Positions 6,395 to 43,623 of a stretch of 44,668 nucleotides of DNA are shown in pieces (position 1 is the first letter of the stretch; each line of letters begins with the position of its first letter). Location: positions 1-44,668 of IMG/VR virus record IMGVR_UViG_3300010885_012823; one strand, written 5' to 3'. The DNA is from a virus. The notes below the pieces were generated by a model that saw nothing but the letters and a program-made list of their open reading frames with translations, was not told the DNA's origin and did no database searches. Both the position numbers and the translations under genes were made by a program.

Positions 6395-7152
6395 TGTACT
6401 TTAAAGAATTTCCAAAATTTATCTACGACTTTAAATACGGTAAAGAAACTAGAACATCTATTGTAACTGACATTACTCGAAATGTTCGTTTCCGTAAAGA
6501 AGTATTAGATAACATTTCTCTTTATGATGAATATGACATTATGGAAGGTGAGACACCAGAAATTATTGCAGAAAAAGTTTATGGTAACTCTATGTATCAT
6601 TGGATTATTATGTTGGCTAATCAGCGTTATGATTATCTAACAGATTTCCCAATCACTGATCAAGGAGTTGAGAGAGCATCTGCTATAATGTATAATCCAC
6701 CATTCACCCCACCATCAACTGCATTTTCATATGTTGGTAGAGATGTATCAGTTAATTTACCATACGCACATGGTATTCAAGTTTCTCCAATAACTACAGT
6801 TACTGTTTCTGGAACATCTGCGACAACTAATGCACCAAATGGAACATTCACGATAACTGCGGTAACTCCAACACAAATTACATTTAGAGTAACTACAGCA
6901 CCGACTGGTACTATTAGTGGTACTAATATTAAGTTAATCACTTCTGGAAGAGAACGATATACTCACCACTGGGAAGTTCAACTGAGTGACTCTTCTAATG
7001 ATTGGCATATAGTTAATTCAGATTATGTTGGTGCAACTGCTGTTTCTAATTTAGAGTATGAGTTTAGACAAAACAATAAAAAGAGAAGAATTAAACTAAT
7101 TGCACCCGAAGTGGTTGCTGCTATTTTGAAACAATATAAAGAAGCGTTATAA
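6394..7152 (+). CDS. 53: Baseplate wedge protein gp53, with an inserted beta domain
   Basis: The protein is 252 aa, against 196 in T4. The N-terminal half shows EIIAEKVYGNSMYHWIIMLAN followed by YDYLTDFP (about residues 55-90). This is the LysM-like 'YGN...YHW.I...N' signature of gp53, which clamps neighbouring wedges together. A Thr/Ser/Val-rich segment (about residues 105-185: TVTVSGTSATTNAPNGTFTI and following) is absent from T4 and looks like an inserted beta-sandwich. The C-terminus (NNKKRRIKLIAPEVVAAILKQYKEAL) returns to the family pattern. The stop codon overlaps the start of the next gene by one base. Confidence 0.8.
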   Translation: MYFKEFPKFIYDFKYGKETRTSIVTDITRNVRFRKEVLDNISLYDEYDIMEGETPEIIAEKVYGNSMYHWIIMLANQRYDYLTDFPITDQGVERASAIMYNPPFTPPSTAFSYVGRDVSVNLPYAHGIQVSPITTVTVSGTSATTNAPNGTFTITAVTPTQITFRVTTAPTGTISGTNIKLITSGRERYTHHWEVQLSDSSNDWHIVNSDYVGATAVSNLEYEFRQNNKKRRIKLIAPEVVAAILKQYKEAL

Positions 7153-8432
7153 TGCAATCAACTGAAAAATTAAGATTTGCTGGTGATGTCAGCATAAACA
7201 AAGTGCAAATCATCACGTCACGTGGTGTGTATCAAGATATCACAGCGCAAGTTCTTACTCTTCAGTTTTATGAAGATATATTTTCTCCATTTTTAACTGG
7301 AAGTATTATCGTAAAAGAATCTTTAGATCTTGCAAACGTCTTACCATTTATTGGTGAAGAGTATGTTGACCTTAATGTGACTACCCCTACCATCCCCGAT
7401 GCAGCTATAAAGGGTAAGTATTACATTTATAAAATGACAGACAGAGAAATTCTTGGAGATAGATCTATAATCTATCAATTGCATTTTGTTTCAGTTGAAG
7501 CTATTGTCGATTTAAATAAGAAACTGAGTAAAACATTTGCCGATAAAATTTCATCTTTGGTCGAACCACTTTTAAAAGATAAAACCAATGGTCTTGAAAC
7601 TAAGAAAAAGATTTACGTTGAACCCACTTTCAATAGTATAAAATTTATTTCAAATTTTTGGTCACCTGTTAAAAGTATTATGTATTTGGCTAATAATGCC
7701 AGTAATATGAATAAAACTCCAAACTATGTTTTCTTCGAGAACAGAGATGGTTTTTATTTTATTAGTTTAGAATCATTATATTTAAATGGTGTAAAACAAA
7801 CATTTATTCACGACAAATATACTCGTGACACTCTTCCCAATGGTCGAGATGTACGTAATGTAAATGAAGATTTTAAACGTATTATTGATATTAGCATTCC
7901 AGTTGCTTTTGATTATATGGATAGAATTGGTTCTGGTATGTTATCATCAAAACAAATTTCATATGATGTTACCAAAAAATCATATTCAACTAAAAATTAT
8001 ACAATGTTTGAGAGGTTTGCAGATCAAAAACACTTAAATAAGTATGCAATCAATTCTGATAAAGCAATTTTCAGATCAAACTCTGCTCTTATAAATTTCC
8101 CTAAAAATTATGGTAATTTTAATAATTACGGTGACGTAACAAACTCTAAATCTAATCAAGAACGACTTTCTTTAATGAAACTGGCAGAAGCAAACAGATT
8201 AAATATTACAGTTCCAGGAAGAACTGATTATACTGTTGGACAAAAAGTTAATGTTGATTTAAAACGATTTGAACCAATATCAGCTGAGGATACTGATTTA
8301 ACTGATAAAATGTTTGCTGGTAATTACATCGTTGCTGCTATCAATCACTATGTTGATAAAGAAAAACACGAGTGCCATATGGAACTAATTAAAGAATCAT
8401 CGTTGATGGATATGAATAGGAACAAGCAATGA
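7152..8432 (+). CDS. 27: Baseplate hub subunit gp27
   Basis: The protein is 426 aa; T4 gp27 is 391. It begins with a beta-rich domain (VSINKVQIITSRGVYQDITA, then LQFYEDIFSPFLTGSIIVKES). A second such domain contains YYIYKMTDREILGDRSIIYQ. Near the end, RTDYTVGQKVNVDLKRFEP and AGNYIVAAINHYVDKEKHEC match the tail-hub fold. gp27 forms a trimer that joins the sixfold tail tube to the threefold gp5 spike. The gp5 gene overlaps the last four bases, the normal neighbour and a sign of coupled expression. Confidence 0.82.
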   Translation: MQSTEKLRFAGDVSINKVQIITSRGVYQDITAQVLTLQFYEDIFSPFLTGSIIVKESLDLANVLPFIGEEYVDLNVTTPTIPDAAIKGKYYIYKMTDREILGDRSIIYQLHFVSVEAIVDLNKKLSKTFADKISSLVEPLLKDKTNGLETKKKIYVEPTFNSIKFISNFWSPVKSIMYLANNASNMNKTPNYVFFENRDGFYFISLESLYLNGVKQTFIHDKYTRDTLPNGRDVRNVNEDFKRIIDISIPVAFDYMDRIGSGMLSSKQISYDVTKKSYSTKNYTMFERFADQKHLNKYAINSDKAIFRSNSALINFPKNYGNFNNYGDVTNSKSNQERLSLMKLAEANRLNITVPGRTDYTVGQKVNVDLKRFEPISAEDTDLTDKMFAGNYIVAAINHYVDKEKHECHMELIKESSLMDMNRNKQ

Positions 8433-29338: not shown

Positions 29339-31198
29339 ATGAAAAAGTTTTTATTAGTAAATTATACAACACCTAATTCTTCTGCAAATGAGATTCCATA
29401 CTTATGGCTAACTCTCAAATCTTATTTCCAACGTAACTCTAAAGTCCCATCTGCATGGCAGTGGCTCGATCCAGAGTATTCAGATGTCGCAGAATCCCCA
29501 CAAGAACTAATTGACAGAATTGTCATTCAAGAACCAGACGTTGTTGGTATTTCTTGTTACATGTGGAACGATAAACTCACAATGTATATTGCTGAGCAAG
29601 TCAAAATAAAACTCCCAAACATTAAAATTATTGCTGGTGGTCCAGCCCTTTACTACGAACATTTTAAAGGATGGTTTGTAGAAAATTGGTTCATTGACGC
29701 TTTGTGTGAATACTCTGGCTACGGAGAAGTTTTTATTACAGATTACCTTGATGGTGTTCCAATCAAAGATATTCCATTTTGTGTTTATCCTTCTTTGCGT
29801 AGAGCATTTTGGAATAAAGCTACCTCAGATTATAATAAAAGAGAATTTAATTATCCAATGCCATATTTGGATAACATTGAATATCTTAAAAAATTCCCAA
29901 AAGAACAAACAACAATTATTTTAGACACATCACGTGGGTGTCCTTATGCATGTTCATATTGTGAATGGGGTGGTGGCACTTCTACTAAGGTAGTATTTAA
30001 ACCTATTGAAGAAACTATTAAAGAACTTGAAGTTATATTTGAGTATCTAAACCCAACTCATATTGATATAATTAATGCTAATTTTGGGATAGTTAAAGAT
30101 GATATTAAAATTGCAAAAAAGATAGTAGAACTCAATAACAATAAATGTGTTAAATACATTAATGTTTATGGTCCAACTAAAACTAGCAAAAAATTTCTAA
30201 GAGAGATATATGATATATTTTTATCAAACGGAATTTTAGATGATATAAAAGTTTCTGTTCAGCACACAAATCAAACTATTTTAGATAATATCAGTAGGAT
30301 TGATATGCCGTTTGATGACCAGATAGAATTTTATACCGATTTAAGAGACAAGTACAATAAAAATTTAAGAGCAGAATTAATAATTGGTCTTCCTGGTGAA
30401 ACTCTTGATACATTTTATGATCTAATTGAACATATAACTAAATCAAAATATCTTGAACCTACTATGTATGAGTGGATGATGCTACCTTCTGCTCCAGCTG
30501 CATCGCCAGAATATATGTCTAGCATGAAAATTAAAACTAAGAAAGCATTAGTAAATTTAGATTTGCAGGGTAGAAATGTTATCCCAAGAAACGAATATAC
30601 AGTAGACAAACAATTAACTGGAACTAGACATTTATTATTTGATCAGAACTGGTTACAACCATATGACATTGTAGTATCAACATATTCTTATGGTGTTGAG
30701 CAGTGGGTTGAAATGGAAATGTTTAAATACTATTTCTCATTCCTGAATAGAAATAGAGTTATAACACCTATTCAAAATAGACTAAGATCTAATGGTGTGG
30801 ACATTACAGAATTTAACAGAACATTGTTTAAAGAATTTTTATTATCAATACCCACTATATCTAAAATCTATAATGAATTTATTGATAACATTAATAACGA
30901 AACACCCAGTGATATTTTATACGCAGACATTGCACCAAACTTACCTTATATAAGTCATTATAGCACTTTAAAGTTTTTGATTTTATTAAATCCAGAAGGA
31001 TTCTTTAACGCATTGAAGATATGGTTAAAGAAATATGATGATGCAATTTTAGATGATATTTGTGATCATCTATCTGATAATATTAAAACACCAATGAAAA
31101 TGGATATACCTCAAAAACAAAAAATTAGTGAGTGTATATCCATGTGTAAAAACTGGGGTGATAATTTATTCCTTGACGACTTCGTCCCCCAATATTAG
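29339..31198 (+). CDS. B12-binding-type radical SAM protein (619 aa)
   Basis: Residues 1-150 resemble the Rossmann-like cobalamin-binding domain found before many radical SAM cores: VGISCYMWNDKLT, then IKIIAGGPALYYEHF. The DxHxxG base-off motif is missing, as in many such enzymes. The radical SAM [4Fe-4S] site is SRGCPYACSYCEWGGG (Cys201, Cys205, Cys208). LRAELIIGLPGETLDTFYDLI further on also fits the Elp3/MiaB-like barrel. The C-terminal 200 residues are helical and unassigned. Enzymes of this class methylate or rearrange unreactive carbons using SAM; the substrate here is unknown. It is on the plus strand, and its last 33 bases overlap the end of the convergent SPASM gene. It faces the other radical SAM genes and probably works with them (inference). 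Confidence 0.82.
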   Translation: MKKFLLVNYTTPNSSANEIPYLWLTLKSYFQRNSKVPSAWQWLDPEYSDVAESPQELIDRIVIQEPDVVGISCYMWNDKLTMYIAEQVKIKLPNIKIIAGGPALYYEHFKGWFVENWFIDALCEYSGYGEVFITDYLDGVPIKDIPFCVYPSLRRAFWNKATSDYNKREFNYPMPYLDNIEYLKKFPKEQTTIILDTSRGCPYACSYCEWGGGTSTKVVFKPIEETIKELEVIFEYLNPTHIDIINANFGIVKDDIKIAKKIVELNNNKCVKYINVYGPTKTSKKFLREIYDIFLSNGILDDIKVSVQHTNQTILDNISRIDMPFDDQIEFYTDLRDKYNKNLRAELIIGLPGETLDTFYDLIEHITKSKYLEPTMYEWMMLPSAPAASPEYMSSMKIKTKKALVNLDLQGRNVIPRNEYTVDKQLTGTRHLLFDQNWLQPYDIVVSTYSYGVEQWVEMEMFKYYFSFLNRNRVITPIQNRLRSNGVDITEFNRTLFKEFLLSIPTISKIYNEFIDNINNETPSDILYADIAPNLPYISHYSTLKFLILLNPEGFFNALKIWLKKYDDAILDDICDHLSDNIKTPMKMDIPQKQKISECISMCKNWGDNLFLDDFVPQY

Positions 31199-32518
31199 AC
31201 TAAATGCTTTTAATTGAACTGCTCGGTGGTAAACCTTTTCAACTGCACAGTTAGTAAAAAATACATTATCTGGAACTTCAATCGGGCAGTTTGATTTACA
31301 CAAACGGAATACTTCACAAGACTTACAGTGTTTTTCATATCGTTCTAAGTCAACTCGTTTTAGTTTAACCTCATCGAGTTTATCAATATGTCCACCAATA
31401 AATGATTCATCTGTATGTGGACACGTGCGAATATTACCTTTCATATCAATAGAAAGAACACCCTCGTCATCGACACCACATGAAGTTATTGATGTTGGTA
31501 AAATTTGCTGGCGCAGAGTTTTAGCGTAAGGTAAAACACCCATACCACCTTGCCATAAATTACTGTTTAATATTTTATTGTCAACACCATTCATCTGTGC
31601 GTGACACGCATCAAGATATCGTTCCACAATACCTTTAAAGTCTTGTAATGCATCACCAGAAATAACGTGATTGGCAGATCCTGACTCATTGTCATAATCA
31701 TAGTTATGCCCAAGATTCCAAGAAATTGCCAAGCGAGTCATATCAAGACCATTTTCGGAAGCGTAGTTATAGAAGAAGTTATTAATATCAAATAGATTAT
31801 AGTTGGTGCGAGAAAGAACTGGGTTAAAACTAAACTTGATGTTGTCAATTTTCTGTGCAGCTTTTAATATTTCTATTTTTTTATGTAAGAATTCTTCACC
31901 ACGTAGTCTCTCATGTCCTGGACCATCATGGGAAACACCAATAGTAACTGTACCTTTTAACTTACTAAAAAACTCAATATGTTTCATTTGAAGTGGTGTA
32001 CCATTGGTAGGGATAAACCAAGTTAATCCTTCTCTATCATACGCAAGCATAATATCAACCATCGTTTTCCAATAAAGGAAAGTCTCACCACCCCACAGGT
32101 CAATCTTTTCTAAACGACTCATATCAAGTTTAGATAACTGTTGAATAAATTGTTCAGTTGTTGTAATCTTTTCTCGTTCATCTGGATTACCGATGTCTTT
32201 CTGCATACAATAATCGCAAGAATAGTTACAAGCGTGTCCAAGAAGAATACGAATCCAAAAAGGTTTATCAGATTTTACACGTGAACGTGTTTCTTTTATA
32301 ACATCATTATAAGCATCAGTGGGTTCTACTGGTTCAGATAAAGGATTCATATCTTTATCATACATGCCATTAGTGTAATTATCATAGTAGAACTCAATAT
32401 TACCAGAACGAAATTTGGTGATAGAATCTGCAGTTCGTTCAATCATGGGAAGACGATCTGGCTGTTTTTTCAGCGAGTTTTTAACTGATGTTAAACTAAT
32501 GTTATAAGTGTGTGACAT
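31166..32518 (-). CDS. Radical SAM/SPASM maturase (450 aa), complete SPASM set
   Basis: The core site is CNYSCDYC (Cys97, Cys101, Cys104), followed by WGGETFLY (the GGE motif, residues 143-145) and SHDGP near 197. The C-terminus has the full SPASM pattern of seven Cys: Cys347, Cys366 (preceded by G-x4), then Cys398-x2-Cys401-x5-Cys407-x3-Cys411, then Cys424. SPASM domains carry two auxiliary Fe-S clusters. They are found in enzymes that modify peptides or proteins, such as anSME, sactisynthases and the PqqE and MftC families. No transport or leader-binding (RRE) domain is obvious; the first 90 residues are long enough to hold an N-terminal recognition region. It is the last gene of the minus-strand operon; its ATG overlaps the previous stop codon. 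Confidence 0.85.
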   Translation of the reverse strand: MSHTYNISLTSVKNSLKKQPDRLPMIERTADSITKFRSGNIEFYYDNYTNGMYDKDMNPLSEPVEPTDAYNDVIKETRSRVKSDKPFWIRILLGHACNYSCDYCMQKDIGNPDEREKITTTEQFIQQLSKLDMSRLEKIDLWGGETFLYWKTMVDIMLAYDREGLTWFIPTNGTPLQMKHIEFFSKLKGTVTIGVSHDGPGHERLRGEEFLHKKIEILKAAQKIDNIKFSFNPVLSRTNYNLFDINNFFYNYASENGLDMTRLAISWNLGHNYDYDNESGSANHVISGDALQDFKGIVERYLDACHAQMNGVDNKILNSNLWQGGMGVLPYAKTLRQQILPTSITSCGVDDEGVLSIDMKGNIRTCPHTDESFIGGHIDKLDEVKLKRVDLERYEKHCKSCEVFRLCKSNCPIEVPDNVFFTNCAVEKVYHRAVQLKAFSLILGDEVVKE

Positions 32519-33615
32519 TATTTAAATTGAAAGAGTGGTACAATCTTGTCTGATGGTTTAACTAAACCATATTGAGTAGACTGCCAACCATTCTTTTCTA
32601 ATCCTTCATGAAAGTTATGATATGGTTTTAATGATAGTGTAGGTATAAAGTTATAATCTTTATTTACAATTAAGTTATCTGCAACCCAATTGAAATAATC
32701 TTTGTAGTTCTTTGTTGCTCCTGAATTCACTAATTTAAGTTTTTCTGCATGTCGTTTGTAAACATCTATTTTATTAGCCATATGAGAGTATACATGACGA
32801 TCTATATTCCAACCATCTGACAATGTATCATACGGAGTGCAATTAGGGTCAATCGCATCAATCAACGTATGGAAGAACGAATCATACTGCAAGTAATCTG
32901 CCTCACCACATATAGTAAGTATATCACCATTATGAGTTGCAAAAGATGTTTGTTGCGAATCAGTATTAAGTAATATAGTACTGAATGTTTTCGCATCGGC
33001 ATGGACAATGTATTTTACCTCATTAGCCACTACCCAGTCAAGTATTTTTTTAACTGGTTCCCATTGCAAAGATTCCGTATCTGTTTGAATAAGTTTAATT
33101 AATGATATCGGCATCATTTTGTGAATCTTATTTAACTTATCAATAATATCTTCTATTTTAATCTTTGCGAGCCATTTATCTGAGAACGTAAATTCGTAGA
33201 TACCTTTAGGTCTTGCAATCTCATTGGTTAGAATATCCCAAGCACGAATAAAGTTATTATCAGTCATAGAGCCAAAATGGAAGATCCCAGCATGGTCTTT
33301 ATACCATTCAAACAGATGGGGTTGCTGATGCTTCATCCAATATAAATCGTCAATGGTACTGGCGAAAGTATAATTTGAAAATACATCTACCCAAAGATCG
33401 CACATTTTTTGCGTAATTGCTTCTGGCACAAATCTTTGAAACTCAGTTTTATTCTTCTCAAAGTATTTGTCAACATAACATATATGACACCCAGCAAAAC
33501 AATTATATCTTCTAACTATTGAAAATATGACTTCGTTCTGCAAACTTTTGAGATTGTCTTCCTCTATAAAGTATTGTCTGAAGTTTGTGTCTTTAGTTAC
33601 TGTTTGGTTTCGCAT
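32518..33615 (-). CDS. Divergent radical SAM-like protein (365 aa), no SPASM
   Basis: RRYNCFAGCHICYVDKYF near residues 35-52 gives the CX3CX2C triad (Cys39, Cys43, Cys46) with an aromatic residue after the last Cys, as in radical SAM enzymes. The rest is divergent: there is no GGE motif and no SPASM cysteine cluster. Segments such as GIYEFTFSDKWLAKIKIEDI and ISLIKLIQTDTESLQW could be barrel strands. It may be a radical SAM enzyme acting on a different step, or a partner that has lost part of its activity. It overlaps the upstream SPASM gene by 23 bases and the downstream one by one base, so all three are co-translated. Its catalytic competence is unsure. Confidence 0.7.
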   Translation of the reverse strand: MRNQTVTKDTNFRQYFIEEDNLKSLQNEVIFSIVRRYNCFAGCHICYVDKYFEKNKTEFQRFVPEAITQKMCDLWVDVFSNYTFASTIDDLYWMKHQQPHLFEWYKDHAGIFHFGSMTDNNFIRAWDILTNEIARPKGIYEFTFSDKWLAKIKIEDIIDKLNKIHKMMPISLIKLIQTDTESLQWEPVKKILDWVVANEVKYIVHADAKTFSTILLNTDSQQTSFATHNGDILTICGEADYLQYDSFFHTLIDAIDPNCTPYDTLSDGWNIDRHVYSHMANKIDVYKRHAEKLKLVNSGATKNYKDYFNWVADNLIVNKDYNFIPTLSLKPYHNFHEGLEKNGWQSTQYGLVKPSDKIVPLFQFK

Positions 33616-34687
33616 CTGCTATCCAATGGAAGAAAGATTTTTTCTGGTGAATCTTGGTGGTGTATCTTACCATAGCATCAATAATTTGATAGAACTGAAC
33701 ACATTTAGTTCCAGGTTGTGTATCAAACATCTTATGTAGATATCTCAATCCACATAGTTTAGCAGACGGACAGGTTACGCATTTCTCTTGCACAATGTCT
33801 TCTGGCATACCGTTACGAATTAATGTTGGAACAAAGTTTGGAGATAAACCATCTGTCCATCTTCCTATTTGATACTCTGGTCTTTTATATTCACAGAAGT
33901 CATATTCAGAATACATAAACCCATCTGGTGATAGAATAATTTTATAATGGTCACCGAAATAATCTTTATCCGTAATACCATAGTTTCCGTCAATAAAAAC
34001 CATTATATTGTAGTTGTAAAGAACATTAATAAAACGCATAAACGAATCAGCGAATTGAGACAAGTCTAAATCTTCAACGAATGTTTTAAATTTGCGTTCA
34101 CCACGATGATGACGAAGTGGGATAAGATTGATTGAACGAACTTTGCAACGAGATATTTTATCAAGAATATCTTTAATACAATCTAAACTAAACACCTTAC
34201 GATCCAAAATAGGCATAACAAATTGCCAATGAATAGGGATGTTATAGTAACCACAAAGATCGATAGCTTGGTAGATATCAAACTCTTCACGATTTTCTTT
34301 TTGATAGATGAAGTCATAAGAGATAGTGAAACGTAAGTATTTACGCCACTTTTCTAAGAACCACTGTTCTTTATGGAACAGGGATGCGTTGGTAGTGATT
34401 GATACATACAATCCTTTACCATCTAGATAATCCTCTTTTAGTTCTTCGAGGATTTGATCCATTCGTTTAACGAATAGGAATGGTTCACCACCATGTAAAG
34501 CAATCCTATCAATTTTGCATTCTGAATCTTTATAAGACTGAACGAAAAAGTTCTTAATTAAACTAAGATGGTGTTTAGTGAACGTCTGGCTACCGATATC
34601 TTTTTTAATATATTCTCGGTCGCAATATTCACAATTAAAATTACATGCGTCACCAAGATAAATGGCGACTGTGTTCACATTTTTCAT
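33593..34687 (-). CDS. Radical SAM protein with reduced SPASM-like domain (364 aa)
   Basis: The triad lies at the extreme N-terminus, GDACNFNCEYCDREY (Cys15, Cys19, Cys22). HGGEPFL follows at about 65-71, and SITTNASL near 96-103, all typical of SPASM-subfamily enzymes. The C-terminal domain keeps Cys265, then Cys303-x2-Cys306-x5-Cys312, then Cys329. It lacks the complete set of seven, so it may hold one auxiliary cluster (a Twitch-like domain) or an altered one. The lack of any N-terminal extension differs from the 434-aa and 450-aa enzymes. It overlaps the upstream gene by four bases (ATGA). It probably modifies a peptide or protein together with its neighbours (inference). Confidence 0.82.
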   Translation of the reverse strand: MKNVNTVAIYLGDACNFNCEYCDREYIKKDIGSQTFTKHHLSLIKNFFVQSYKDSECKIDRIALHGGEPFLFVKRMDQILEELKEDYLDGKGLYVSITTNASLFHKEQWFLEKWRKYLRFTISYDFIYQKENREEFDIYQAIDLCGYYNIPIHWQFVMPILDRKVFSLDCIKDILDKISRCKVRSINLIPLRHHRGERKFKTFVEDLDLSQFADSFMRFINVLYNYNIMVFIDGNYGITDKDYFGDHYKIILSPDGFMYSEYDFCEYKRPEYQIGRWTDGLSPNFVPTLIRNGMPEDIVQEKCVTCPSAKLCGLRYLHKMFDTQPGTKCVQFYQIIDAMVRYTTKIHQKKSFFHWIADAKPNSN

Positions 34688-35988
34688 AATTCCAACGATA
34701 GTTTTCTATAAGATCTTTCTGCTTTTTTCTTACTTATGTCATCTTGAAGATCTAGGTATAACTTAACAATCTTCTGACACATATCATCTGGTCTGAATAA
34801 TGGAGATCCAGTAGATACGTTACCAGCTGGACACTGATAACAATAATTACGATAGTCACAAGTTTTACATTGTTCTTCTTCCGTATGCATTTTATTGTAT
34901 AGTTCTTGGAATACAGTATAACGATCGATATGAACACGATCTTCAAATACATTACCCAAAACTGTTGGTTTTACAGCGTCTGACTCTTTCATATTAGTGA
35001 AAAAGTAACAACCAGTAAAGTCGCCAGATCCATCTATGGCGATCATATCTGATCCAACTAAACAATTGTTTTCAACTTTTTGGCCAACTCCTTCTGAGAA
35101 TGAAATCTCGAAGTCGGCATACTTGTCAATTAGAGATACGATATCAGTGTGTAGAGTATTCCACCTATTGCTGTCCCAGCTAATATAACCAACGCTGGAA
35201 TCATGCACCAATGGATGCACAATAATGTTACGTATACCGACGCTATAAAGTCGTTCCATATATTCTTTAAAATATGGAGAGTGCTCTTGAGCAAGTGTGC
35301 AACGGAAAAAGATTCTATCTTTAGCATGTCGTGGGAGTCCTGAAACTGTTTCGATTATTTGGTCAATTTGTTCCTGCTTCAATTCACGATGGTCCAACTC
35401 AACTTGTAATGTATCTAAAGATATCATTAAGTAGGTAAAATCATATTCAAAATATGCTTTACAAAAATCTTTGGTAAGTAGAATACCATTGGTAATCATA
35501 CTAATAGCTTGTCCCTTATCGAAATAAGTTCTAGACAAATATTCTTTATTATTTTCTAAAAAGTTTACGATTAAGTCTTTATGAATTAGTGGTTCTCCAC
35601 CAAAGAATTGGAATCGTTTATTTTTAGCTTTGGAGTTATTCAGTAACCAGTCATACGCTTTTAATAAAGATTCTTCAGTGAATCTACCGTAGTCTTTCTT
35701 ATGCTGTTCGTAGCAGTAAGTGCAAGAAAGGTTGCAAGCGTTAGTTAGAATTACGTTCATGTGTCCAATATCTTGGAACAGATGTGGATACTCTGAGAAT
35801 GATACAACTCGTTCTTCTTTTGACGGAAGAATTGATATGAGTGTATTTTGTTTGGTTAATCCGTTTGGAGTTATAATGTCTTCAGTTCTAAACCGCAGAC
35901 TTCCATCAGGAGAAACCCCCACTGTTGCTTGATGGTCGGGGTTTATTGATTTTTTTGATTTATGAAATACTATAGGTTGTTCAATCAT
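34684..35988 (-). CDS. Radical SAM/SPASM maturase (434 aa)
   Basis: The core site is NACNLSCTYCYEQH (Cys85, Cys89, Cys92), followed by FFGGEPLIHKD (GGEP, 130-133), MITNGILLT, and MISLDTLQ near 188-195. This matches anSME and peptide-maturase enzymes closely. SPASM cysteines are Cys309, Cys327 (after G-x4), then Cys374-x2-Cys377-x5-Cys383-x2-Cys386, then Cys404. The N-terminal 75 residues (VGVSPDGSLRFRTEDIITPN and following) lie outside the barrel and may recognise the substrate. It is the first radical SAM gene of the operon, directly downstream of the 319-aa, 68-aa Cys-rich and 134-aa genes. That makes it the best candidate for acting on the Cys-rich tail. No RRE domain could be confirmed by eye. 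Confidence 0.85.
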   Translation of the reverse strand: MIEQPIVFHKSKKSINPDHQATVGVSPDGSLRFRTEDIITPNGLTKQNTLISILPSKEERVVSFSEYPHLFQDIGHMNVILTNACNLSCTYCYEQHKKDYGRFTEESLLKAYDWLLNNSKAKNKRFQFFGGEPLIHKDLIVNFLENNKEYLSRTYFDKGQAISMITNGILLTKDFCKAYFEYDFTYLMISLDTLQVELDHRELKQEQIDQIIETVSGLPRHAKDRIFFRCTLAQEHSPYFKEYMERLYSVGIRNIIVHPLVHDSSVGYISWDSNRWNTLHTDIVSLIDKYADFEISFSEGVGQKVENNCLVGSDMIAIDGSGDFTGCYFFTNMKESDAVKPTVLGNVFEDRVHIDRYTVFQELYNKMHTEEEQCKTCDYRNYCYQCPAGNVSTGSPLFRPDDMCQKIVKLYLDLQDDISKKKAERSYRKLSLEL

Positions 35989-36013
35989 TCTCAGTCCATA
36001 ATAAAAGAAGAAT

Positions 36014-36973
36014 TTAAAGTTTTACAATTACAAAATCGTATTTTGGCATTTCTTCTTTAGATGATAATGTATCTAATTCTGTGCCAGTTTCCCAGCGATA
36101 AGAAATAGTTGCGATTTGTTTATCTGTCATATCAACGATAAGTTTTTGTTTATTTTGTTCTACAGGAACTGACGCACGATATTGTAAATCGATAGATGGT
36201 AGGTCTTTATCGCTAATCCATGACTTATTGATAAAATGTAGTTTAGACAAACCAAGAGTATCGATAGTGAATGTATCTTCAGTAGTGCTGATAATATTAT
36301 CACCAACGAACTCTGCTCCATCTAGAGATGGACGGAACACGCAAGTTTTAAAATTACCTTCTGAGGTGTTCATAATTGTGAACGTATCTTCAGAATTATC
36401 AAACTCTGAATCTTCTAAGAAGTTTTGACGAATGATATTTGGGTCTAAAAGGTTGTTATTTGTTACAACGTAGTAGATATCGGTGTCTTTAATCTTATAG
36501 AAAACCATCCAGATAGCTGCAGCATACTTAACATTATACTCAATTTCTTCGTTAGTTTCAAAATTAGTGATACGATTAGTAAGAGTATTTCTACCAAAAT
36601 AAATTGTCTTTTCAACAACATCGGTTTGGGAAATCAATTTACCATCAAACATATAACCGAAATAAACTGCCTTAACTCCTGCAGTTAGTTTTTCTTTAAT
36701 TAAGTCAAAGTTAATTTGTTTTATACCTAAAGACTGACCCTCAGTTGGCTCTGATACACCGATAGCCAAAGCGGAGTCAATACCTTTGTATAAACCAATT
36801 TTGTTATTGATTTTAACGTAAGTATTAATTTGTTGTTCATGGTCGGTTACTGCACCAAAATCGATGTTATCTAATCCTGGATTTGGACCAGCGTAGTAGG
36901 AATTTAATCCTTCTGTTACATCAGACCAAGACTTGGAAATAGATGTTTCTGTTTTGAAAATAAAAGTACTCAT
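36014..36973 (-). CDS. Orphan 319-aa protein of the radical SAM operon
   Basis: I do not recognise this 319-aa protein. It has no Cys pair suggesting a cluster, no signal peptide and no membrane segment. It is acidic and probably beta-rich. Segments include AGPNPGLDNIDFGAVTDHEQ near residues 28-47, KAVYFGYMFDGKLISQTDVV and YAAAIWMVFYKIKDTDIYYV. The C-terminus (LIVDMTDKQIATISYRWETG) also looks like strands. Its ATG follows the TAA of the Cys-rich gene directly, and the purine-rich codons for that peptide's GRGG end (AGAGGCGGA) may serve as its ribosome binding site. This tight coupling suggests a matching amount of product. It might be a carrier or scaffold, a virion protein carrying the modified peptide, or a further substrate. 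Confidence 0.6.
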   Translation of the reverse strand: MSTFIFKTETSISKSWSDVTEGLNSYYAGPNPGLDNIDFGAVTDHEQQINTYVKINNKIGLYKGIDSALAIGVSEPTEGQSLGIKQINFDLIKEKLTAGVKAVYFGYMFDGKLISQTDVVEKTIYFGRNTLTNRITNFETNEEIEYNVKYAAAIWMVFYKIKDTDIYYVVTNNNLLDPNIIRQNFLEDSEFDNSEDTFTIMNTSEGNFKTCVFRPSLDGAEFVGDNIISTTEDTFTIDTLGLSKLHFINKSWISDKDLPSIDLQYRASVPVEQNKQKLIVDMTDKQIATISYRWETGTELDTLSSKEEMPKYDFVIVKL

Positions 36974-37180
36974 TTATAGTCCGCCTCTACCGCATGCGCA
37001 TGCGCAATTGCAGTTACAGTTAGTTGAATAATCGTCGTATAAAATATGGGTATGATCTGTTAGATTATCTAAAATTGTTAACATTTGAAGAAATGTATCG
37101 GGAGTAATAGTATCACCAACAGCTTTCGGTTGAACAACAACACCAGATTGTCCGCTACCTGCGGTATTATCACCAGCCAT
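36974..37180 (-). CDS. Candidate RiPP-like precursor: 68-aa protein with alternating-Cys tail
   Basis: The protein is 68 aa. The first 20 residues are Gly/Ser/Gln-rich. Residues 21-51 hold a conserved unit (VGDTITPDTFLQML ... DHTHILYDDY) shared with the upstream 134-aa protein. The tail, residues 52-68, reads STNCNCNCACACGRGGL: five Cys at 55, 57, 59, 61 and 63, each separated by one residue, then GRGG. A leader-like body with a Cys-rich C-terminus next to several SPASM enzymes is the layout of sactipeptide and ranthipeptide precursors, though I know no family with this exact spacing. The ribosome binding site is excellent (GGAGG six bases before the ATG, inside the end of the previous gene). 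A metal-binding, non-modified structural tip is the alternative. Confidence 0.65.
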   Translation of the reverse strand: MAGDNTAGSGQSGVVVQPKAVGDTITPDTFLQMLTILDNLTDHTHILYDDYSTNCNCNCACACGRGGL

Positions 37181-37182
37181 AA

Positions 37183-37587
37183 TTAACCTCCGTAATAAGT
37201 GTAATCATCCCAATAATGGGTATGATCGTTTGCACTGTTAAAATTGGCTCTCATTTCTTCGTGCTTTGCAGCTGTAATAGTTTCCCCAGCGACAACAGGA
37301 ACCATATCTACACCACCAGAAACATTTCCCAGTGGGGATGTATAGTCTGGATCTTGAGCATAATAAGTTCCAGTTGATGGTATATTACCAAATTGCTCAA
37401 ATGAATAGTCTGAAGTTTGATGATAGTGGTTATTCCACGTTAACCACATTCCCATTACACCATTAAAATCTACAGCCTGAATAGTATTCCCAGAAACAAA
37501 ATTTGCTTTAGCAGCTGTAATAGATGATTTAATATCACCAGATGCAGGGCTTATCATCCCCGAAGTAGTTCTAGTTATAGTAGGCAT
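37183..37587 (-). CDS. 134-aa His/aromatic-motif protein, first gene of the radical SAM operon
   Basis: The protein is 134 aa and has two copies of a roughly 30-residue unit. One is at 32-61 (SGNTIQAVDF ... NNHYHQTSDY). The other is at 100-129 (AGETITAAKH ... NDHTHYWDDY), followed by TYYGG. The 68-aa Cys-rich protein has a third copy. The shared core is G-x-T-I, then about 18 residues, then (N/D)-H-x-H-x3-D-Y. H-x-H pairs in phage fibres can bind structural iron, and similar 'I....HTH...D' units occur in small tail-associated proteins as far as I recall. The end is unusually rich in Tyr, Trp and Asp, so it could be a substrate for aromatic cross-linking radical SAM enzymes (inference). AAGGAT lies seven bases before the ATG. 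The gene is the promoter-proximal one. Confidence 0.65.
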   Translation of the reverse strand: MPTITRTTSGMISPASGDIKSSITAAKANFVSGNTIQAVDFNGVMGMWLTWNNHYHQTSDYSFEQFGNIPSTGTYYAQDPDYTSPLGNVSGGVDMVPVVAGETITAAKHEEMRANFNSANDHTHYWDDYTYYGG

Positions 37588-37643
37588 AAATAATCCTTAG
37601 ATATCCTTTTCCATAGACATATTTAGCTTTCTATGGATACAAC

Positions 37644-37672
37644 TTATTTAGGATCTAGCCGATCCTAAATAA
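37644..37672. promoter_or_regulatory. Perfect 12-bp inverted repeat between divergent operons (back-to-back promoter candidate)
   Basis: The arms TTATTTAGGATC (37644-37655) and GATCCTAAATAA (37661-37672) are perfect inverted copies around TAGCC. Each arm reads outward as CCTAAATAA, towards the minus-strand radical SAM operon (ATG at 37587) and the plus-strand S74 fibre (ATG at 37709). The same nine bases occur before gp4 and gp25. It is not a convergent terminator, because both neighbours point away from it. It could be paired late promoters, an operator for a dimeric regulator, or both. Confidence 0.6.
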
Positions 37673-38896: not shown

Positions 38897-40453
38897 ATGG
38901 CAGTAGTATTACAATCAAATACAATTGATGGTTTAACAAGTTTAGCAGTATCAACTGCTTCAAATTTCACTGGAAATGCTTATGTTCCAACTAGAACGAA
39001 TGGTGATAAATCCACAGTAATTGCAAACACATCATTTGTAGACTCAAATGCGACAAGACCTCATATCACTCAACTTGTGAGTGGTGGGTCTAACGGAATC
39101 TTCTTTATATCAGATGGTAAACTTTATGAGTGCCATGGGTCTTCAGGAACTTCCAATTATATTGGCGGTAGACATATTGCAGATACTGATTATGTATTTG
39201 GAATCTCTCGTACAACACAAGTTCCAATTCCTGATACAAGTCCAGTAATTAAAGCATTTGGTACTAAACACGCATTGGCTCTATGTGCCAACGGTAATTT
39301 ATACACATGGGGATATAATGGATATGGACAACTTGGTTTAGGTGATACATCAAATAGAGTAAGACCAACTTTATCTGCCACTGGAGTTGTTGATTTTTAT
39401 TATCATGAAACACAGGGTGGTGGTCATTACATGTATGATGCTAAGTCTATCATCAAGAAAACTGATGGATATCTTTACTCTTGTGGATATAATGGTTACG
39501 GACAATTAGGTTTGGGTAATACCAATGCTACATATAGTTGGACACAAATTACTGCTGCAGGAACTAATCCACTGTTTGTTGGTAATTTTGGTAATTCTTT
39601 TGGTAAGATCGTTGTTCAAAAATCAGATAAAACTATCTGGATGGCAGGATACAATGGTTATGGTACATTTGGTAATGGTGACACAACTGGTGCTGTTCCA
39701 ACACTCACAAACGTAGATTCAAACTGGCGAGGTGGTAACACTAATCTATTAATTACTGGCATGGCTGGTGGCTCTGGTTATCAAGCCCCATCAGGAACAT
39801 CTTATACTAATTTAGTATTACTATTAGATGATGGAATAAACACTTATGTAAAAACTGCAGGTGCCAATAACTGGTCTAGTCTTGGAACTGGTGATGCTAC
39901 AAATAGATATACTGCATTTACAGTTACAATGCCAGCTGGCTCAGGTAGAATCACAAAAGTTGTTCAAAATCCTGATAGTGTTGGATCAGTATATGCATTA
40001 TCAAATAATGGTAATCTATATGCATGGGGTTACAATGGATATGGGCAACTAGGTTTTGGTGATACTTCAGATAGAAATACTCCAACTCTGACTACTACTG
40101 GTGTCACAGACATGTATTACAGTGTTGCATATGGATATGGGCATTATCATACGCAACATATTAAAAAATCTGATGGATGGTATTGCGCTGGATATAATGG
40201 TAATGCTACGGCAGGTAATGGCGTCTCAAGTAGTAATGAAACCACTTGGGTTCGCACTCGGTTTCCATATACTTCTGATATTAAATTGTTTGGCAATATG
40301 TCAACTACTGGTAACACACGTCAAATGGTTGCAATATCAACCAACAATACTGTTTATGGTTGGGGATATAATTACCAATATGGTGTATACTACTGGAGAC
40401 AAGGTTATGTCAATGCTCCTCAACAATTTGAAATTTTCCGTGGACAAGATTAA
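38897..40453 (+). CDS. RCC1-like beta-propeller tail fibre protein, copy 1 (518 aa)
   Basis: The N-terminal 60 residues (LQSNTIDGLTSLAV ... STVIANTSFVDS) have the 'IA(T/N)T.FV' motif common at the base of phage fibres. The rest is built of about seven RCC1-type blades of roughly 50-60 residues. They centre on LYTWGYNGYGQLGLGDTSNR, LYSCGYNGYGQLGLG, IWMAGYNGYGTFGNG, a divergent ANNWSSLGTG, LYAWGYNGYGQLGFG, CAGYNGNATAGNG and VYGWGYNYQYG. A weak extra blade (LYECHGSSG) precedes them. Seven blades would close one propeller. RCC1 propellers are binding platforms, so this is probably a receptor-binding protein. GGAG precedes the ATG. Two paralogues follow in tandem. Confidence 0.8.
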   Translation: MAVVLQSNTIDGLTSLAVSTASNFTGNAYVPTRTNGDKSTVIANTSFVDSNATRPHITQLVSGGSNGIFFISDGKLYECHGSSGTSNYIGGRHIADTDYVFGISRTTQVPIPDTSPVIKAFGTKHALALCANGNLYTWGYNGYGQLGLGDTSNRVRPTLSATGVVDFYYHETQGGGHYMYDAKSIIKKTDGYLYSCGYNGYGQLGLGNTNATYSWTQITAAGTNPLFVGNFGNSFGKIVVQKSDKTIWMAGYNGYGTFGNGDTTGAVPTLTNVDSNWRGGNTNLLITGMAGGSGYQAPSGTSYTNLVLLLDDGINTYVKTAGANNWSSLGTGDATNRYTAFTVTMPAGSGRITKVVQNPDSVGSVYALSNNGNLYAWGYNGYGQLGFGDTSDRNTPTLTTTGVTDMYYSVAYGYGHYHTQHIKKSDGWYCAGYNGNATAGNGVSSSNETTWVRTRFPYTSDIKLFGNMSTTGNTRQMVAISTNNTVYGWGYNYQYGVYYWRQGYVNAPQQFEIFRGQD

Positions 40454-40485
40454 ATGAAAAATAATAAACAAATCTGGAGAACACA

Positions 40486-42048
40486 ATGGCAGTAGAACTG
40501 GGTTCAAATACAGTCACTGGGTTATACAGCCTACAGGTCTGGGGTTCAACATCATTAAGTGGTTATGCTTATGCGGTAACACCACCAGCTGGCGATTGGG
40601 TTGGTGGAAGAATTGCAACTACTGAATTTGTTGATACCACAGGGTCTCGCCCGAATATAGATTTTATTTCTGTGAACGGATTTAATTCAATGTTAATTCG
40701 TTCTGGTGGTAAATTATACGAAGCACATGGAACTTCTTCATATCCAAATTATACCAGTGGACGCAGTTCAACTGATGATTCTCTTGTAACTGGTTTTGAA
40801 TATTTTTCTCAAGTTCCAATTCCTGATACAAGTCCAGTCACTGAGGCTTATTTACATGGTCCATTTGCTTCTGCTCTATGTGCCAATGGTAATTTGTATA
40901 CATGGGGCTATAATGGTTACGGACAACTAGGTTTAGGTGATACGACAAATAGATCCTTCCCAACTTTAAGTAATACTAACGTAACCAAGATATATTGGCA
41001 CAATACGCAGTCTCAGTATAGTTGTTATGAAACTAGAATGATCATCAAGAAAACTGATGGATATCTTTACAGTTGTGGATATAATGGTTATGGTCAACTA
41101 GGTGTTGGTGATACAACTAACAGAAGTTCATGGACTCAAATGACTGCTGCAGGCGCAAACCCACTTTATGTGGGTAATATTGGTAATACTTATGGTTCAT
41201 TGGTTATTCAAAAATCAGATAAAACTATTTGGATGGCTGGATATAATGGATACGGACAATTAGGTACTGGTAACGGCACTAACTTAACTGTACTAACCAA
41301 CGTAGACTCTGCATGGAGAGGTGGTAATACCAATCTATTAATTAGAAGTTGTCATGCTGGTATGGGATATTATACATCGAGTGGATCTTCACAATGCTCA
41401 ATCGGATTATTTCTTGACGATGGCACAACTACCTATATTCGCATGGCTGGATCCAATAACTGGAATCAATTAGGTACTGGTGATGGTTCTGATAGAACTA
41501 CACCATTTACTACTTGGACTGGAACTGGTTCCGCCAGAGTTGAAGAAGCTGCTTGGCAGGGTGATGTTGTTGGTGGTATGCATATTCGTACCACTGCTGG
41601 TAATCTTTATGGTTGGGGATATAGTGGATATGGACAAGTTGGTAATACCGATGGAGCAAGTTATGTGGTTTCTCCAACACTAACTGCCACTGGTTGTACT
41701 AAACTTTGGGGTGATCACTCTGAACATACATACGGACACTACCATACTTCATTTATGCAAAAGGCAGATGGTCTTTATTCCACTGGATATAATTCTTACG
41801 GAGAATTGGGTAAAGGATTCTCAGGAAATAGATGGGGTTGGGGTAAAGTCCAAATACCTCAAGCTGCACACGAATCAATTAAGTTTTTGGGGCAAAATTC
41901 TACCACTGGTTCTACTAGATGTTATGTTGCTGTCACAAATAATAACACGTTATACTCTTGGGGGTATAACGGACAATATATGGTATTTGGATGGAATGGT
42001 GGTACTGTTTGGGCTCCAAGTCAATTTGAACTAATGAGAGGCGATTAA
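40486..42048 (+). CDS. RCC1-like beta-propeller tail fibre protein, copy 2 (520 aa)
   Basis: This is a paralogue of the preceding gene with the same length and layout. The N-terminus is LGSNTVTGLYSLQVWGSTS with RIATTEFVDT. The blades are marked by LYTWGYNGYGQLGLG, LYSCGYNGYGQLGVG, IWMAGYNGYGQLGTG, SNNWNQLGTG, LYGWGYSGYGQVGNT, LYSTGYNSYGELGKG and LYSWGYNGQYM. The N-terminal half and the blade cores are close to copy 1. Loop segments such as HAGMGYYTSSGSSQCS and SGNRWGWGKVQIPQ differ, as expected if loops contact the receptor. GGAG lies six bases before the ATG. The stop codon abuts the ATG of copy 3. Confidence 0.8.
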   Translation: MAVELGSNTVTGLYSLQVWGSTSLSGYAYAVTPPAGDWVGGRIATTEFVDTTGSRPNIDFISVNGFNSMLIRSGGKLYEAHGTSSYPNYTSGRSSTDDSLVTGFEYFSQVPIPDTSPVTEAYLHGPFASALCANGNLYTWGYNGYGQLGLGDTTNRSFPTLSNTNVTKIYWHNTQSQYSCYETRMIIKKTDGYLYSCGYNGYGQLGVGDTTNRSSWTQMTAAGANPLYVGNIGNTYGSLVIQKSDKTIWMAGYNGYGQLGTGNGTNLTVLTNVDSAWRGGNTNLLIRSCHAGMGYYTSSGSSQCSIGLFLDDGTTTYIRMAGSNNWNQLGTGDGSDRTTPFTTWTGTGSARVEEAAWQGDVVGGMHIRTTAGNLYGWGYSGYGQVGNTDGASYVVSPTLTATGCTKLWGDHSEHTYGHYHTSFMQKADGLYSTGYNSYGELGKGFSGNRWGWGKVQIPQAAHESIKFLGQNSTTGSTRCYVAVTNNNTLYSWGYNGQYMVFGWNGGTVWAPSQFELMRGD

Positions 42049-43623
42049 ATGGCTGTAATAATGCAAAGTAATACCCTAGATGGTATTGCAACTCTTACTG
42101 TTGGACCTGGATCTACGGAATTAAATGGTGTATCTTATGCACCAACTATGTCAGCTGGAAATAAAAGTGTTAATATTGCCACAACTGAATTTGTGGCTAA
42201 AACTGGCACACGTCCATCAATAGATTATGTTTCTACTGGAACATACAATAGTTTCTTTATTCTATCAAATGGTATAATATACGAGGCACATGGAACTGTA
42301 TCTGCTGGAAATTATACAAATGGTTCGACTGATTCTGGTAATATGTTGGTCACTGGTGTTGATCGTGCAACTGCAATCCCTATTCCTAGTTCATCTCCAG
42401 TAATACAAATTGCTGGTGGCATGCAAGATTGGGCAGCTGCTTTATGTGCCAATGGTAATTTGTATACATGGGGTTATAATAGTAATGGTGGTTGCGGGCT
42501 TGGAAATACTTCTTACACAAATAACCCCACTCTTGCTGCAACTGGTGTAGCGCAAATTTATGAACATCCAACACAAGGTAATTATTCTATTGGTAATGCT
42601 CCACTTTATATTAGAAAAACTGATGGTTACATTTATGCCACAGGATATAATGGCTATGGACAACTAGGTGTTGGTGATACCACAAATAGATCCACATTTA
42701 CTCAGATTCCTACAATTGGTGCAAATCCAACATTCTTCTCACCATTCGGTTCACATCTTGGTGGATTTGTTGCTCAACGTGCATCGGATAAAACTATTTG
42801 GGTAGCTGGATATAATGGTTATGGCCAACTTGGCACTACTGATACCAGCAATCGGTCAAGTCCAACAAATGTCACTGCACAGTGGAACAATACTGGAGAT
42901 TCTACATATATACTTAGATCTGTTCATGGTGGGTTTGGTTATAGCACATCAAGCGCAGCTTCATACTGTTCATTAGCAATGCTTTTTGATAATGGAACAG
43001 GTACATTTATTAAATCATGTGGTGATAATAACTGGTCACAATTAGGTTCTGGTGGTACAAGTGCTACGTATACACCATATCTTCCTTGGGCTATTACTAC
43101 TGGTTCTAATAGAGTTAAGAAGGTAATGTGGCAAGGCGACTGCGTTGGTGGATTTTTTATATTATTAGAAAATGGTAATTTGTATGGGCACGGATACAAT
43201 GGTTACGGACAATTAGGTAACGGTAACGAAACTACACTTACTAGTCCAACATTAGTACAAACTGGTGTTATTGATTTACCAAGAGAACAAAACGAATACG
43301 CATACGGACACTACCACACTTCATTCTGTATTAAAGCAGATGGACTTTATGCATGTGGAATTAATAACTATGGTCAATGTGGTGTAGGTGATACTTCAAA
43401 TAAGAATACTTGGACCAAAGTTAATGTTCCAGGAAATGTTACTGGAGCAAAAATTAAATTCCTTGGACAGACTTCTACAACTGGTTCTACAAGACAGTAT
43501 GTATTAGTTACAACAGATAACACAATGTGGGTATGGGGTTATAATGGACAGTATTTCTGCTATCCATGGCATAGCGTAAGTTATGTTCCACCGACACAAT
43601 TCGAATTAACAAGAGGAGATTAA
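42049..43623 (+). CDS. RCC1-like beta-propeller tail fibre protein, copy 3 (524 aa)
   Basis: This is the third tandem paralogue. The N-terminus is MQSNTLDGIATLTVGPGSTE with NIATTEFVAKTG. The blades include LYTWGYNSNGGCGLG, IYATGYNGYGQLGVG, IWVAGYNGYGQLGTT, DNNWSQLGSG, LYGHGYNGYGQLGNG, LYACGINNYGQCGVG and MWVWGYNGQYF. The order of the blades, including the divergent fourth, matches copies 1 and 2, so the trio arose by whole-gene duplication. More Cys in some blades (GGCGLG, YGQCGVG) sets it apart. It follows copy 2 with no gap and ends two bases before the assembly chaperone, which has its own good ribosome binding site. Confidence 0.8.
   Translation: MAVIMQSNTLDGIATLTVGPGSTELNGVSYAPTMSAGNKSVNIATTEFVAKTGTRPSIDYVSTGTYNSFFILSNGIIYEAHGTVSAGNYTNGSTDSGNMLVTGVDRATAIPIPSSSPVIQIAGGMQDWAAALCANGNLYTWGYNSNGGCGLGNTSYTNNPTLAATGVAQIYEHPTQGNYSIGNAPLYIRKTDGYIYATGYNGYGQLGVGDTTNRSTFTQIPTIGANPTFFSPFGSHLGGFVAQRASDKTIWVAGYNGYGQLGTTDTSNRSSPTNVTAQWNNTGDSTYILRSVHGGFGYSTSSAASYCSLAMLFDNGTGTFIKSCGDNNWSQLGSGGTSATYTPYLPWAITTGSNRVKKVMWQGDCVGGFFILLENGNLYGHGYNGYGQLGNGNETTLTSPTLVQTGVIDLPREQNEYAYGHYHTSFCIKADGLYACGINNYGQCGVGDTSNKNTWTKVNVPGNVTGAKIKFLGQTSTTGSTRQYVLVTTDNTMWVWGYNGQYFCYPWHSVSYVPPTQFELTRGD

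Follow-up and report, generated by a model that had tools for sequence, protein, structure and literature searches.

In the ranthipeptide systems, which include PapA/PapB (freyrasin), CteA/CteB and other SCIFF systems, a single SPASM radical S-adenosylmethionine (SAM) enzyme with a CX3CX2C triad and seven auxiliary cysteines acts on a Cys-rich C-terminal core. PapB makes Cys-Asp and Cys-Glu thioethers and accepts Cys-Xn-Asp with n = 0-6 (PMC9413430), and in quinohemoprotein amine dehydrogenase the radical SAM enzyme of the QhpC/QhpD system, QhpD, forms thioethers within a small protein subunit that is retained in a larger assembly (PMC8172795). Radical SAM genes have also been reported from phages: the multiple genes of this type in marine T4-like genomes were interpreted as belonging to Fe-S metabolism (PMC5332604), and those of the Ralstonia jumbo phages RP12 and RP31 were published singly, with neither a substrate nor a module proposed in the accessible part of the report (Matsui 2017, PMC5468394). 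Here we describe a minus-strand operon (37587-31166) in which four radical SAM genes lie behind three small genes, found in IMG/VR virus record IMGVR_UViG_3300010885_012823, whose 44,668 nucleotides, all of which were analysed, are called the window.

The interpretation that we favour is that this module carries out the sequential radical modification, probably by thioether cross-linking, of a virion tail protein; the substrate, the chemistry, the virion location and the function of the tip are what we infer. SPASM maturases and an architecture like that of the precursors of ribosomally synthesized and post-translationally modified peptides (RiPPs) are, part by part, of known kinds. By homology, the locus is like the ranthipeptide systems in its SPASM enzyme and Cys-rich C-terminal core, but it has four different radical SAM enzymes instead of one, an alternating Cys-X repeat and a position in a phage tail region, and it is without export genes. 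The QhpC/QhpD system differs in having one radical SAM enzyme, in belonging to a bacterial dehydrogenase and not to a virus, and in lacking a CX repeat.

The candidate substrate, very probably the one on which the radical SAM enzymes act, is the 68-aa protein p68 (36974..37180, minus strand), in which a variable N-terminus is followed by a helix-like stretch, an HxHxxxD motif (H43, H45, D49), YDDY and the C-terminal tail NCNCNCACACGRGGL. The five-fold Cys-X repeat of this tail (C55-C63, 36992..37018, minus strand) is the proposed modification site; the window contains a single copy of it, and 100 shuffles yielded none. No family match to p68 was obtained in Pfam, NCBIfam or PHROGs, and a sequence search of the PDB returned only chance matches to SMG9. 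In 41 distinct homologues the tail consists of three to six Cys-X units, followed in nearly all of them by a small residue and RG, and the residues separating the cysteines are mainly N, E, Q, D or A. When the first 12 homologues were aligned, H43, H45, YDDY, C55, C57 and RG were invariant. In 27 p68 coding sequences the core tail cysteines were likewise invariant, with TGT and TGC used freely; the pairwise codon differences at the Cys sites comprised 856 synonymous and 72 non-synonymous ones, the latter number fitting, by our count, an additional Cys at the end of three sequences (3 x 24). The cysteines of p68 are therefore under purifying selection. In one homologue (L088:9793-10416, minus strand) an intein running from CFAGDT to ITKN interrupts the CX tail between ACQCNCA and CNCTCCTRG (intein_Nterm, 27.2 bits, cut-off 24.5), which is in keeping with the tail being a critical site.

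The neighbourhood of the module was surveyed by IMG/VR scans with rS365, rS434 and p68 + rS434 alignments, plus one genome scan (the radical SAM proteins rS434, rS364, rS365 and rS450 are described below). The resulting set comprised 41 viral or phage-like contigs, near-duplicates included, that had rS434 and enough flank, so that rS434 is present in 41/41 by construction. Homologues of the other two small genes, p134 and p319, were each found in 41/41, and so was a CX-repeat protein: the script counted p68 in 40, and in the remaining contig, L103, the protein is 122 aa long, contains a second HxH unit and ends in the tail CNCNCNCNCNCTRGII. rS364, rS365 and rS450 were each present in 40/41, as were all four enzymes together. 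DUF3050, a haem-oxygenase-like di-iron family (PMC4520260), was found in 28/41 modules and a class-III aminotransferase in 5/41 full modules; for one such gene, adjoining p319/p68 (L005:7576-8850, minus strand), BioA was the best NCBIfam match, and one of the models ranked next, at a score below cut-off, was that of the daptide RiPP aminotransferase. Gene order varies, p68 lying before or after p319, downstream of all radical SAM genes in L083, and on the opposite strand in L088, L143 and L154; the association of p68 with the radical SAM genes survives this rearrangement. An independent DNA-motif scan for p68 gave 51 stretches, 12 of them on previously unseen contigs, of which three encode p68, all three with the module, and the other nine do not. 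On one of these three, contig L125, the module is present as far as the sequence reaches (p134, p68, p319, rS434 and rS364).

Contigs L010 (378,912 bp) and L003 carry a T4-type gp23. L103 is part of a 253,226 bp contig (NZ_RCZD01000008.1) of the cultured Ewingella americana E4, with 41% GC, dense coding and a phage-type topoisomerase, which is probably a jumbo phage, its phage nature being presumed; a DNA-level comparison of a 19-kb piece of it with INPHARED gave no match. The whole module (p134, p68, p319, four radical SAM genes and DUF3050, the last being MgoB) is carried by Ralstonia phage RP12 (L080, 279,845 bp). The model of phrog_36229, the family of rS365, matches RP12 with a score of 922 bits, and phrog_31780 and phrog_32604 have full-length counterparts in the p134 and p319 of this phage. 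The accessible part of the RP12 report lists ORF76 as radical SAM, ORF77 as Fe-S oxidoreductase, ORF79 as MoaA-like and ORF80 as MgoB (PMC5468394), and these four open reading frames match rS434, rS364, rS450 and DUF3050 in that order. As RP12 is phiKZ-related, the module crosses phage lineages, and its relatives span T4-like and phiKZ-like phages. A tblastn search of INPHARED, in which RP12, RSF1 and FLC1-1B were not found under the accessions tried, gave nothing for p68, rS365 or p134 and only weak gut radical SAM proteins for rS434. Campylobacter Firehammerviruses and Vibrio phage 1.081.O were discarded as relatives, since they have radical SAM genes but no CX repeat was found nearby. In the Burkholderia jumbo phages S13, which is flagellum-dependent, and FLC6, adjoining radical SAM and 2OG-Fe(II) oxygenase genes have been reported (gp70-gp82; PMC11898562, PMC8066314).

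A second setting of the repeat was found in Achromobacter phages 2-1 and JWF, in which the fibre part of tail-fibre-type proteins ends in NCNCDCNCSC and NCNCDCNCNCSC (L115:5635-7077, L116:2844-4295). The repeats directly precede a Hint domain (PF05203, above cut-off), whose self-cleavage may expose or derivatise them. Two genes downstream of the fibre lies a radical SAM gene whose product scores 156-171 bits against the rS450 profile and 27-41 bits against those of rS434 and rS364; the JWF homologue is annotated as anSME. These loci resemble the present one in having a CX repeat on a tail fibre adjoining an rS450-like enzyme, and differ from it in their single radical SAM enzyme, in the Hint domain after the repeat and in lacking the HxH unit, p134 and p319. 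They thus connect CX repeat, tail fibre and radical SAM enzyme independently of p134, p319 and the other enzymes. Two further viral contigs, with Cys-rich small proteins of other kinds, look like wider variants: L095 has four radical SAM genes with a 122-aa protein ending in QWCNCNCACACCCD (L095:1069-1383 and 6844-7212), and L096 has seven with a Cys-rich 121-aa protein (L096:8137-8502).

The preliminary description of this locus, made from the sequence alone, had proposed a multi-enzyme modification system aimed at a small protein, perhaps of the virion, or at a host-directed peptide. Its proposed neighbourhood survey bore out the co-occurrence of the enzymes with the small genes (41/41), and the target, given there as a small protein, can now be specified as the candidate p68 with its CX repeat, which is probably a component of the tail. 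In the host-directed form of the proposal, p68 would be a phage RiPP released against the host or competitors, bacteriocin-like or for superinfection exclusion, and not a virion part. The architecture is indeed precursor-like, with a leader-like conserved part, a Cys-rich C-terminal core and several radical SAM maturases, p68 accompanies rS434 in 41/41 with its core cysteines invariant at the codon level, as in a RiPP cluster, and the haem-oxygenase-like DUF3050 protein accompanies 28 of the 41 modules. However, no peptidase, transporter or immunity gene belongs to the conserved set, none of the identified conserved neighbours in the 41 modules is a leader-removal or export gene, p68 is a paralogue of p134 that stands beside p134 and p319 throughout and, in this phage, in the tail-fibre region, and the CX motif is also found at the ends of tail fibres in Achromobacter phages. 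We therefore consider a released peptide unlikely, and the host-directed alternative is left unsupported.

With regard to the enzymes, the five open reading frames noted in the preliminary description lie where it had placed them, and their CX3CX2C triads (Cys201/205/208, 97/101/104, 39/43/46, 15/19/22 and 85/89/92) are invariant in relatives. All five belong to the radical SAM superfamily, as judged by this triad in a partial TIM barrel: Pfam Radical_SAM scored above cut-off in four, and the fold identified rS365. GGE motifs were present in three of them, as reported, at 130-132 of rS434, 66-68 of rS364 and 143-145 of rS450. Of the SPASM-type C-terminal cysteines claimed for three enzymes, the full set of seven (signature CX9-15GX4C ... 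CX2CX5CX3C ... C) was confirmed in two. rS434 (34684..35988, minus strand) has C309, C327, C374, C377, C383, C386 and C404, with CX2 replacing CX3, and rS450 (31166..32518, minus strand; CX2CX5CX3C) has C347, C366, C398, C401, C407, C411 and, in 7/8, C424. rS364 (33593..34687, minus strand) keeps only C303, C306, C312 and C329 and is thus twitch-like, and rS365 (32518..33615, minus strand) has no C-terminal auxiliary Cys.

The search with hidden Markov models (HMMs) that had been proposed beforehand gave matches of the enzymes to peptide- or protein-modifying SPASM models of NCBIfam, and no metabolic equivalog above cut-off. The best match of rS434 was the PapB model (NF047865; 121 bits, 6e-35, against an equivalog cut-off of 340 bits), and it also matched CXXX-repeat, QhpD-type and SCIFF maturase models; its nearest solved chain is 5wgg, which we take to be CteB. 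In contig L088, rS364 and rS434 are naturally fused into a single 758-aa polypeptide, and in L076 an additional rS434-like enzyme (424 aa; L076:8420-9694) lies between rS365 and rS450 within the module. The rS450 profile matches the anSME structure 4k37 in an anSME-like region, below the anSME equivalog cut-off, but unlike anSME it has no sulfatase-type target nearby. A viperin-type antiviral role was rejected, as viperin_w_prok tops the HMM matches of rS364 and rS450 at only 52-54 bits against a cut-off of 180.

rS365 was not recognized by any curated radical SAM HMM of Pfam or NCBIfam, and a sequence search of the PDB returned only chance matches to Apaf-1. Its AlphaFold model, made with 31 homologues in which C39, C43 and C46 are invariant, has a minimal radical SAM fold (predicted local distance difference test, pLDDT, 92.5). 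The best 25 structural matches were all radical SAM proteins (MoaA, SuiB, ChlB, SkfB, viperin, EpeE, PqqE, TigE; Z 8.2-10.9), with the first proteins outside the superfamily at Z ~5; Foldseek alone gave a weaker match, to DesII (E 4.5e-3). Alternating D/L epimerisation, a possible reaction that both the every-second-residue spacing and the presence of EpeE in this list bring to mind, gained no further support and was set aside. The fifth enzyme (619 aa, 29339..31198, plus strand), whose gene lies tail to tail with rS450, was correctly described as having a B12-domain-like N-terminus: Pfam finds B12-binding followed by Radical_SAM, the class B domain arrangement, and the KedN5-family model matches at 93 bits (subfamily cut-off 700). 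It was found in 9/41 modules, and is an optional addition and not part of the core; a multi-enzyme system stands on the co-occurrence and the SPASM matches, with this accessory enzyme left out.

p134 (134 aa, 37183..37587, minus strand; phrog_31780, function unassigned) contains two helix + HxHxxxD units without a Cys tail, and p68 is a paralogue of its C-terminal half. In 18 homologues H54, H56, D60, H122, H124 and D128 of p134 are invariant and cysteine is nearly absent. p319 (319 aa, 36014..36973, minus strand) is beta-rich, fast-evolving and poorly conserved among homologues. Its model (pLDDT 87.7) shares a fold with an uncharacterized RP12 protein (Foldseek E 2.4e-17, TM 0.70/0.76) and has no clear match among PDB folds, where only weak immunoglobulin (Ig)-like matches (Z 5-6) were found for residues 205-319. 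The predicted fold and its weak Ig-like C-terminal part would be compatible with a virion surface protein, and both p134 and p319 are putative structural proteins, the latter perhaps an adhesin partner.

These proteins bear on a second explanation, in which the Cys repeat and the HxHxxxD units merely bind metal at the tail tip and the radical SAM enzymes modify p134, p319 or the fibre. HxH metal sites occur in tail fibres and spikes, the HxHxxxD motif is invariant in both p134 units and in p68, and p134 and p319 are as constant in the module as p68. Even so, p134 homologues are almost free of Cys and p319 is poorly conserved, Cys-rich targets are typical of PapB/CteB/QhpD-type maturases, and the Achromobacter CX repeat adjoins a radical SAM gene without any HxH unit, all of which make this explanation improbable. 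That the radical SAM genes serve metabolism (Fe-S or nucleotide) or cofactor synthesis as auxiliary genes and are placed here by chance is very improbable indeed, for although such genes were read as Fe-S metabolism in marine T4-like genomes (PMC5332604) and are annotated as MoaA-like and Fe-S oxidoreductase in the accessible part of the RP12 report (PMC5468394), three non-enzymatic small genes constantly accompany them in T4-like and phiKZ-like phages despite rearrangement, and no metabolic equivalog scored above cut-off.

Several points count against our preferred reading, the modification of the p68 tail. The 41 contigs include near-duplicates and were collected for their resemblance in sequence to the query module, the scores of all enzymes stay under the NCBIfam equivalog cut-offs, rS365 is without auxiliary Cys and has no assigned role, and the Cys repeat of p68 could hold metal without being modified. 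Because all the enzymes score below those cut-offs, the reaction cannot be assigned by homology. Taken alone, and by analogy, thioether links within the repeat fall somewhat short of an even chance; they are the leading guess because N, E, Q, D and A make up most of the residues between the cysteines, and the tolerance of PapB for n = 0-6 makes closely spaced acceptors plausible.

In the mechanism that we propose for p68 modification, the operon would be a late, virion-linked protein-modification module. p68 would be a one-unit derivative of the p134 family to which a C-terminal Cys-X repeat was added, and its helix + HxHxxxD + YDDY part would serve as a recognition region comparable to a RiPP leader, probably kept in the product because the conserved set is without a protease. 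The four radical SAM enzymes would work in sequence on the repeat: the PapB/CteB-like rS434 would most likely form thioethers from Cys to the side chains of the intervening N, D, E or Q, with rS364 as its partner; rS450, whose type is the only one to adjoin the CX-repeat tail fibres of other phages, would also target the repeat; and rS365 would perform an additional radical step or have a partner role. The product may be a rigid, cross-linked tip of a tail or fibre protein, serving adsorption or stability.

The layout and setting of the operon agree with the preliminary description, which had placed four radical SAM genes with overlapping ends behind the 134-aa, 68-aa and 319-aa genes, amid the tail-fibre genes of a T4-like phage; the overlaps measure 4, 23 and 1 nt. 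Upstream are genes for baseplate hub and wedge proteins of T4 type, the flanks contain tail-fibre-type genes, and the module itself has baseplate wedge genes on one side and tail fibres on the other; matches to PHROG baseplate families (E 1e-58 to 1e-164) identify a T4-like myovirus. Two CTAAATA sites (37620..37651, minus strand) lie upstream of p134. All seven CTAAATA/TATAAATA sites of the window, which resemble T4-type late promoters, precede a gene start on their own strand by 6-60 nt, compared with 2.1% of positions lying 7-60 nt upstream; their presence before p134 and neighbouring genes would fit late expression. Neither an Rfam family nor a tRNA was found in scans of the whole window. 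At 38897-43623 of the window, three successive genes of 518-524 aa, the first with RCC1-type propeller repeats and the second similar, probably encode tail adhesins.

A text search of the literature, mostly lacking subscription papers, returned no description of a phage structural protein modified by radical SAM enzymes. The claim that no phage system of this composition had been described holds, as far as that search goes, for the module as such, but not for its genes, given the single listings in the accessible part of the RP12 report (PMC5468394) and the multiple radical SAM genes of marine T4-like genomes (PMC5332604). More generally, we see an even chance that T4-like, phiKZ-like and siphoviral tailed phages use dedicated radical SAM enzymes to cross-link an alternating Cys-X tail of a virion tail or fibre protein, the number of repeats (3-6) tuning the tip. 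As RP12, RP31, JWF and phage 2-1 are isolated phages, the modification hypothesis is directly testable. If it is true, radical chemistry that is otherwise familiar from peptide natural products serves phages in building a part of their tail. This would explain the puzzling radical SAM clusters of marine T4-like and Ralstonia jumbo phages, until now classed as auxiliary genes of Fe-S or other metabolism, would give PHROGs 1802, 36229, 31780 and 32604 a shared context, and would make available to peptide engineering a new family of maturases for Cys-X repeats.

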